The translations under genes were made by a program, and so were the position numbers. Shown here piece after piece: positions 22,259 through 59,824 of a DNA stretch of 64,000 nucleotides. Position 1 is the first letter of the stretch; each line of letters opens with the position of its first letter. This DNA comes from Methanocaldococcus lauensis (GTDB lineage: Archaea > AGJL01 > Methanococci > Methanococcales > Methanocaldococcaceae), in assembly GCA_902827205.1 (NCBI GenBank), contig LR792634.1:124001-188000 (forward strand). Reading direction: 5' to 3'. The notes under the pieces are model-generated. The model made no database searches. It saw only the letters and a program-made list of their open reading frames with translations, and had not been told where the DNA came from.

Positions 22259-22274
22259 TTTATGGATATAAATC
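22259..22274. promoter_or_regulatory. TATA-like element shared by the C/D RNA and the stress-protein gene
   Basis: TTATGGATATAAATCT centres about 24 bp before the predicted 5' end of the C/D RNA at 22290. On the minus strand the same site reads AGATTTATATCC, a good TATA box for the universal stress protein gene about 60 bp away. Confidence 0.4.
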
Positions 22275-22289
22275 TTTTACCATATTATT

Positions 22290-22351
22290 AATGGCTATGA
22301 TGAAAAGAGGGTTATCTGAACTGTGATGAGACTTACCCGAACTGAGCCATT
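22290..22351 (+). ncRNA. Box C/D guide RNA, double guide against 23S rRNA
   Basis: The 62-base RNA has a 7-bp terminal stem (AATGGCT with AGCCATT), box C ATGATGA at 22297-22303, box D' CTGA at 22316-22319, box C' GTGATGA at 22323-22329 and box D CTGA at 22342-22345, the standard archaeal layout with two 12-base guides. The D' guide matches 23S antisense at 57784-57794 over 11 bases and the D guide matches 57755-57764 over 10 bases. By the D+5 rule the predicted 2'-O-methyl targets are the 23S residues at window positions 57790 and 57761, equivalent to E. coli C1920 and G1949. It is too short and G+C-distinct to be coding and lies antisense-adjacent to the ZPR1 gene. Confidence 0.92.
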
Positions 22352-22949
22352 ATTTTTTCTCTTTTTCTTTATCTAAATCCATAATTACAATTCCTTCTTT
22401 TAATTTTTCAACTTCCTCTTCACTCAATATCTCCTCCTCAACGCCTTCTCCAATAATTGCACTATGACCTAATGGGTCAATTAGTATTAAAGTTGCCTCA
22501 TCTTTTCCTTCTTTTAATTTTTTTATTCTCTCTCTAATTTCCTCTGCTTTCTTTTTTTGCTCTTCTGTTTCCGCCCATCTAATTAAAGTTTGTAAGATAT
22601 TATCAACTCTATTTAAAACTCCTTCAACATTGCTAACAAATCCCTCAGCCAATGGGCCAGGTTTTATTTCAACTCCTAACTCAGGAATTTGAATATAGGC
22701 AGAGGAACTTCTAACAACTCTTTTATTTAAATCTTTTTCACTTTTAATTTTTAATTTATATCTTTTTGGTTCTCTAACTTCTAATGGAAACACATCGCTC
22801 CTTCTAAAATTGCATTTTTCACATATCATTGTTGTCTCCAATACAGGACCAAAGTATGGAATGTCTATTTGATGAGTTGTAATTACAAAACTTCCCTTAC
22901 TTCCACAAACTGGACAGTCTAATCTCTGAACATTTTGAGCATTTTCCAT
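22350..22949 (-). CDS. ZPR1-type zinc-finger protein
   Basis: The 199-residue protein has a single archaeal ZPR1 domain: CPVCGSKG at 12-19 and CEKCNFR at about 42-48 form the C4 zinc ribbon, and the region from about 50 to 160 forms the beta-rich domain with PGPLAEGFVSNVEGVL. Eukaryotic ZPR1 acts with eEF1A; the archaeal role is unproven. The start ATG at 22949 has GGTGATAGTT upstream. The acidic Lys/Glu tail overlaps the end of the C/D RNA by two bases on the other strand. Confidence 0.85.
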   Translation of the reverse strand: MENAQNVQRLDCPVCGSKGSFVITTHQIDIPYFGPVLETTMICEKCNFRRSDVFPLEVREPKRYKLKIKSEKDLNKRVVRSSSAYIQIPELGVEIKPGPLAEGFVSNVEGVLNRVDNILQTLIRWAETEEQKKKAEEIRERIKKLKEGKDEATLILIDPLGHSAIIGEGVEEEILSEEEVEKLKEGIVIMDLDKEKEKK

Positions 22950-23087
22950 AACTATCACCTAAGGGAACTTTTAATCAATTTGTTATATAAAATTTTCTAT
23001 ATGGTTTTTAGTAGATAACTTTTATATATTTCTTGTGGAATAAAACTATTCGATAGCGATAATGTAATGATTAATTATGAAAAATGT

Positions 23088-54993: not shown

Positions 54994-55680
54994 TTATCCT
55001 AACCACTTACCTACAAACATTATGTGATCTTTTTCAAATGGCTCTATATCTACTTCATCGACTATTTTAAATCCATTACTTTCTAAAATTTCTTTTTGTT
55101 CTTTAAATATTTCCTTAGGGTCTTTTGTAACATCTATACTTCTGGCTTTTATTGCTATCATTCCATATCCTCCCTTCTTTAAAAACCATTTAGCATTTTT
55201 TATTAGAATCTCTGCTTGGTTTGGTTGAGCAACATCCTCATAGATGACATCAACTTTCTCAACGATATTTGAATACTCCTGTGGCTTATTCGCATCTCCT
55301 AAAATTGGAATTAAGTTTATTCTATCTTTACATGAATCTAAAAATTCTCTCATAATTCTTGGAGCATACTCAACAGCGTAAATTATTCCTCTATCTGCAA
55401 TGTCAGAGACATGAGAAGGGGTTGTTCCAGCAGATGCCCCTAAATATAAAACCTTTGAATTCCTCTTAATAGGCATGACTTTTAAACCTTTAATTATCGC
55501 CGCACCTAACTTACTCTTATGAGGATTCCAAATTCTATACTCTTCATCATCAACTTTTACAATTTTTTCATCATAAACTTTTTTTCCTTTAACAATTGAT
55601 TTTGTTCCAATTCTTTTTACACCATCTATCAAATCAATTTCATAAACATTTTTAAAGATTTCTTTTATCTTAATGTCCAT
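54994..55680 (-). CDS. flpA: Fibrillarin-like 2'-O-methyltransferase
   Basis: The 228-residue SAM-dependent enzyme is the catalytic subunit of C/D sRNPs, working with Nop5 and L7Ae. Motif [19 protein letters not shown] lies at about 76-93, and the catalytic tetrad region has [12 protein letters not shown] and [10 protein letters not shown]. The start ATG 55680 follows GGTGAATAAA. The C/D RNA at 22290 is a predicted guide for this enzyme. Confidence 0.95.

Positions 55681-56800: not shown

Positions 56801-59824
<3,024 letters not shown>

Follow-up and report, generated by a model that had tools for sequence, protein, structure and literature searches.

A very probable double-guide box C/D sRNA gene of Methanocaldococcus lauensis with predicted targets at C1920 and G1949 of 23S rRNA

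Described systems related to the locus

Box C/D guide RNAs are a well-known kind of archaeal RNA, 489 of which were surveyed by Dennis et al. (2015; PMC4644070). That survey places a hotspot of predicted 2'-O-methylation sites in helix 69 of archaeal 23S rRNA, describes double guides with targets less than 100 nt apart as common, and credits M. maripaludis with only seven C/D RNAs. The sRNA presented here has the same boxes, 12-nt guides, fifth-base rule, pair of targets within 100 nt and helix 69 site. No mechanistic difference is apparent; the survey's seven species do not include Methanocaldococcus. The M. jannaschii ortholog, which lies at about 466942-467009 on the minus strand, may already figure on early sRNA lists.

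In several bacteria, and not in mycobacteria alone as the preliminary description of this DNA implied when it correctly named the site, C1920 is 2'-O-methylated by the protein TlyA, whose action in helix 69 alters 70S stability and susceptibility to capreomycin (PMC5778110). The product predicted here, a 2'-O-methyl at C1920 in helix 69, is that of TlyA (PMC5778110), but TlyA is a stand-alone protein that uses no guide RNA and also acts on 16S C1409. The literature searched, made up of openly available main texts, yielded no report of Cm1920 in an archaeon and no comparison with TlyA. One study of P. furiosus 23S alludes to RiboMeth-seq work on Methanococcales species without showing it (PMC7758197), so measurements of this kind may exist.

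Two Rfam families invite comparison with the locus. The first, sR3 (RF01133), matches it with 49.8 bits (E 1.9e-9, gathering cut-off 41 bits), a likeness that lies in the boxes and their spacing. The sRNA contains neither consensus guide of the family, CGGGUCU or CCGUUGGAGC, and only the boxes align; since both guides differ, so must the targets, and sR3 was rejected as a label of orthology because the guide columns mismatch. Under genome-search settings a second C/D RNA of the same genome (G000:C1:1107516-1107568) scores 37.8 bits against sR3, compared with 35.8 bits for the present locus, indicating that the model recognises boxes rather than guides.

The second family, sR34 (RF01273) of the Thermococcales, carries the same guide, AAGAGGGTTAG, 5' of a box D that reads CCGA or CTGA, and the same C1920 target is therefore predicted for it. 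In sR34, however, this guide adjoins box D, whereas here it adjoins box D', and the partner guide of sR34, CGTTAGCCAC, is unlike the G1949 guide. No sR34 match at the gathering score was reported in the 64-kb window, by which we mean the whole stretch of DNA analysed. In the phylum set searched (Thermococcales), sR34 is present in 92 of 115 genomes, and AAGAGGGTTAG occurs in all 30 of the sR34 loci read, mostly before a CCGA box. In T. kodakarensis, sR34 has been detected in circular form, along with other sRNAs (PMC9014305). At three Thermococcales loci (L238, L242 and L250, near 1590-1642) an sR12 C/D RNA gene (RF01147) adjoins sR34 on the opposite strand.

Anatomy of the locus and complementarity to 23S rRNA

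The features of the locus and of its predicted targets are collected in Table 1. We regard the locus as very probably a canonical archaeal double-guide box C/D sRNA gene targeting 23S C1920 and G1949, from which a transcript, an RNP and two methylations are predicted.

Table 1. Positions in the window of the sRNA gene, its elements, its predicted 23S targets and the fibrillarin-like gene
Feature	Position	Strand	Basis or remark
Box C/D sRNA gene including terminal stem	22289..22352	+	Boxes, Rfam match, 32 orthologs
Possible TATA box TATAAA, 30 nt 5' of box C	22267..22272	+	Only suggestive
Terminal stem, 5' arm TAATGGC	22289..22295	+	Read directly; innermost pairs covary
Box C ATGATGA	22297..22303	+	Read directly
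D' guide AAAGAGGGTTAT, complement of 23S helix 69 3' side; predicted target E. coli C1920	22304..22315	+	
Box D' CTGA	22316..22319	+	Read directly
Box C' GTGATGA	22323..22329	+	Read directly
D guide GACTTACCCGAA, complement of 23S near helix 71; predicted target E. coli G1949	22330..22341	+	
Box D CTGA	22342..22345	+	Read directly
Terminal stem, 3' arm GCCATTA	22346..22352	+	Overlaps stop codon of convergent gene
23S target of D' guide	57784..57794	-	Predicted methylated base 57790 = C, E. coli C1920
23S target of D guide	57755..57764	-	Predicted methylated base 57761 = G, E. coli G1949
Fibrillarin-like methyltransferase gene, C/D RNP catalytic subunit	54994..55680	-	PF01269 at window 55003-55671, 332.5 bits

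Boxes C (RUGAUGA), D', C' and D (CUGA) follow one another in the right order and all four are perfect. The elements run from the stem through one linking base to box C, the D' guide, CTGA, a 3-nt spacer (ACT), box C', the D guide, CTGA and the closing arm of the stem, which comprises 7 bp. Boxes C and D' are 12 nt apart, as are C' and D, and this spacing is kept in the orthologs. Direct reading thus agrees with the boxes and 7-bp stem of the preliminary description, whose extent of 22290-22351 places the locus correctly; the stem reaches one base further at each end. The gene sits in a gap between two minus-strand genes, the convergent one lying at 22350-22958. A scan for a strict C/D pattern hits this locus alone in the window and nothing in 100 Markov-shuffled windows. 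Most orthologs have TATA-like hexamers upstream; because their distance varies, the TATAAA noted here is no firmer than suggestive, and comparison of the TATA-like motifs found no consistently placed promoter shared upstream of the orthologs.

The 16S, 23S and 5S genes of the window all lie on the minus strand, so that identities between the guides and the plus strand amount to complementarities to the rRNA. The D' guide makes 11 consecutive pairs with 23S, beginning at the base that adjoins box D'; the D guide makes 10, leaving unpaired the one base adjoining box D (guide base 1, which is unpaired in most species). Over positions 2-11 both guides pair perfectly (10/10). The fifth-base rule picks out local residues C2025 and G2054 of 23S, 29 nt apart, the same two bases and the same complementary stretches as had been proposed. 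Their E. coli numbers, C1920 and G1949, were derived from the universally aligned stretch GUAACUAUAAC...GUCGGGUAAGU, the count being anchored at the E. coli landmarks 1915, 1917 and 1939. For comparison, the threshold adopted for a C/D guide is at least nine consecutive pairs over the fifth-base site (taken from PMC4644070).

Better alternative targets were sought in 16S, 23S, 5S and the tRNAs of the window and rejected, the best pairing at only 7/10 positions for the D' guide and 8/10 for the D guide. A core that matches 16S or 23S at 10/10 positions turns up in around 0.2% of random 12-mers from the window. When the guides themselves are shuffled, 0.10% of the D' versions and 0.23% of the D versions match either rRNA perfectly over the 10-base core, which gives a joint chance of roughly 2e-6 before the 29-nt proximity of the sites is counted.

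Conservation in Methanococcales and weighing of alternatives

A DNA search recovers the ortholog in 32 of 35 Methanococcales genomes, and the three genomes lacking it are incomplete (81%, 64% and 54% complete). The preliminary description had made its reading depend on conservation of the guides within Methanocaldococcus, and both are kept in all 13 genomes of that genus. Structurally complete units number 31. Of these, 30 carry the D' core AAGAGGGTTA and the remaining one has AAGAGGGTTG, in which pairing is preserved through G-U; 25 carry the D core ACTTACCCGA, and the six that deviate all belong to a single genus, g4. In the 17 genomes outside g4 where both loci are available, the D guide is paired at 10/10 positions throughout, and the D' guide in 16, with 9/10 plus a wobble in the other. 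The two innermost stem pairs form in 31/31 units and switch jointly between genera from CG/GC to TA/AT. Whereas the guides are stable, sequence varies freely in the D'-C' spacer and in the flanks. The evolutionary record of this sRNA is unusually clean, and its pattern is not easily accounted for unless pairing with 23S is under selection. Anatomy, complementarity and conservation thus uphold the class, strand, guides and predicted nucleotides originally put forward.

In genus g4, probably the mesophilic Methanococcus, the 23S target of the D guide reads TCGGGCAAGT in place of the TCGGGTAAGT of the other Methanococcales examined, the change being U1951C. The G1949 guide is lost where its target changed; the C1920 guide is kept and its target is unaltered. 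At the seven g4 loci inspected the D guide is decayed or replaced and its spacing is no longer 12 nt but 11, 13 or 14 nt, and at one of them (L057) box D' reads CTAA. No convincing new target for the altered D guides was found in the 23S stretches searched.

Retention of the D' guide alone in g4 is what would be expected if the sRNA is real but only its C1920 guide serves methylation, the D guide mainly tethering the particle or chaperoning the helix 69-71 region. The same reading would accommodate the usually unpaired first base of the D guide and the recurrence, among the matches listed, of only the C1920 guide in other archaeal lineages. We nevertheless consider it unlikely, given that all 17 assessable genomes outside g4 keep an unchanged and fully paired D guide core, which disappears exactly where its target has changed. 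Far less probable still is that the locus is a chance resemblance or a decayed, functionless sRNA: a transcript that is so far a prediction would be compatible with this, but a joint chance of about 2e-6 or lower, together with guides invariant across two families amid freely varying flanks and D'-C' spacer, leaves the idea barely credible.

It could also be supposed that a stand-alone TlyA-like protein methylates C1920 and that the sRNA acts as a folding chaperone only. Weak matches to the TlyA family model TIGR00478 do occur in most genomes, as expected of generic methyltransferase and S4-like segments, but across the 41 genomes searched none passes the cut-off, the top score in the genome from which the window comes being 33 bits against a required 185.8, and the geometry and spacing of the C1920 guide suit catalysis. 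A TlyA homolog competing for C1920 was accordingly rejected on these sub-threshold scores, and we hold this explanation to be very improbable. With no match above the cut-off, RNA guidance is the only evident route to methylation at this residue, and the predicted route is likely to be RNA-guided fibrillarin. The host genome encodes all three C/D RNP proteins, namely fibrillarin, Nop5 and L7Ae.

For the preferred double-guide sRNA, we infer the mechanism from the class to which it belongs. L7Ae would bind the C/D kink-turn and the C'/D' kink-loop, after which Nop5 and fibrillarin would join the L7Ae-bound sRNA. Each 12-nt guide would then pair with nascent 23S through its positions 2-11, counted from the box, in a duplex of about 10 bp, and fibrillarin would 2'-O-methylate the residue opposite guide position 5, that is C1920 from the D' guide, on the 3' side of helix 69, and G1949 from the D guide, in the helix 71 region. 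Since only 29 nt separate the sites, a single particle probably binds the two simultaneously, and it may double as a folding chaperone.

The C1920 guide in other archaea and its possible meaning

The C1920 guide is not special to this organism: the same guide is found in sR34 and in other archaeal lineages, and is kept across much of Archaea. Its occurrence elsewhere was traced by pattern scans and Rfam searches, the contig scan giving no denominators and including chance bacterial matches. Among the matches listed, complete C/D RNAs with the C1920 guide come from Thermoplasmata, DHVE2, Micrarchaeota and Altiarchaeota. The guide is seen with at least four different partner guides, and in both the D' and the D position.

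At seven listed Thermoplasmata loci, and at others, there is a widely conserved C/D RNA in which the D' guide is the C1920 guide and the partner is CCCTATGAGTG. A search for the 11-base complement of this partner led back only to the guide genes. One contig (L264) has CTCATAGGG followed by the T-arm-like GTTCAAAT, a sequence which suggests that the second target in Thermoplasmata may be an intron-containing tRNA-Met(CAU). Guides closely resembling this Thermoplasmata pair recur in swapped order, on a Micrarchaeota-labelled contig and an unclassified one; at L162 and L182 it is gccttatgagtg and the C1920 guide that have traded the D' and D places, which illustrates either shuffling of guides or convergence.

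On six contigs of the DHVE2 group and related MAGs, a C/D RNA with the C1920 guide at D' lies inside an apparent tRNA-Trp(CCA) intron. ARAGORN finds the tRNA gene only with introns allowed and labels it Arg(cct); the sequence itself looks like that of tRNA-Trp CCA, interrupted by an intron 3' of base 37. The D guide of these RNAs (ctaactggagcg or ataactggagcg) matches the anticodon region of tRNA-Trp, so that a single tRNA intron seems to house both a guide to rRNA and a guide for tRNA Cm34.

C1920 lies in helix 69 at intersubunit bridge B2a (PMC5778110). An RNA-guided route parallel to TlyA had been suggested for this one RNA; it holds as a prediction, and a broader one, the C1920 guide being present in several archaeal lineages. 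We give even weight to the view, and to its denial, that 2'-O-methylation of C1920 by RNA-guided fibrillarin is among the most widely kept archaeal guide targets, that the C/D RNAs carrying the guide have repeatedly changed its position and its partner (the DHVE2-group tRNA-Trp intron included), and that the modification is functionally convergent, at the intersubunit bridge, with that of bacterial TlyA. Taken together, the C1920 guides offer a clean case in which to study one guide conserved while partners and host genes change. If archaea do methylate C1920 by means of an RNA guide, even in the probably mesophilic genus g4 where the second guide is missing, then the function of the methyl group is probably independent of heat stability.
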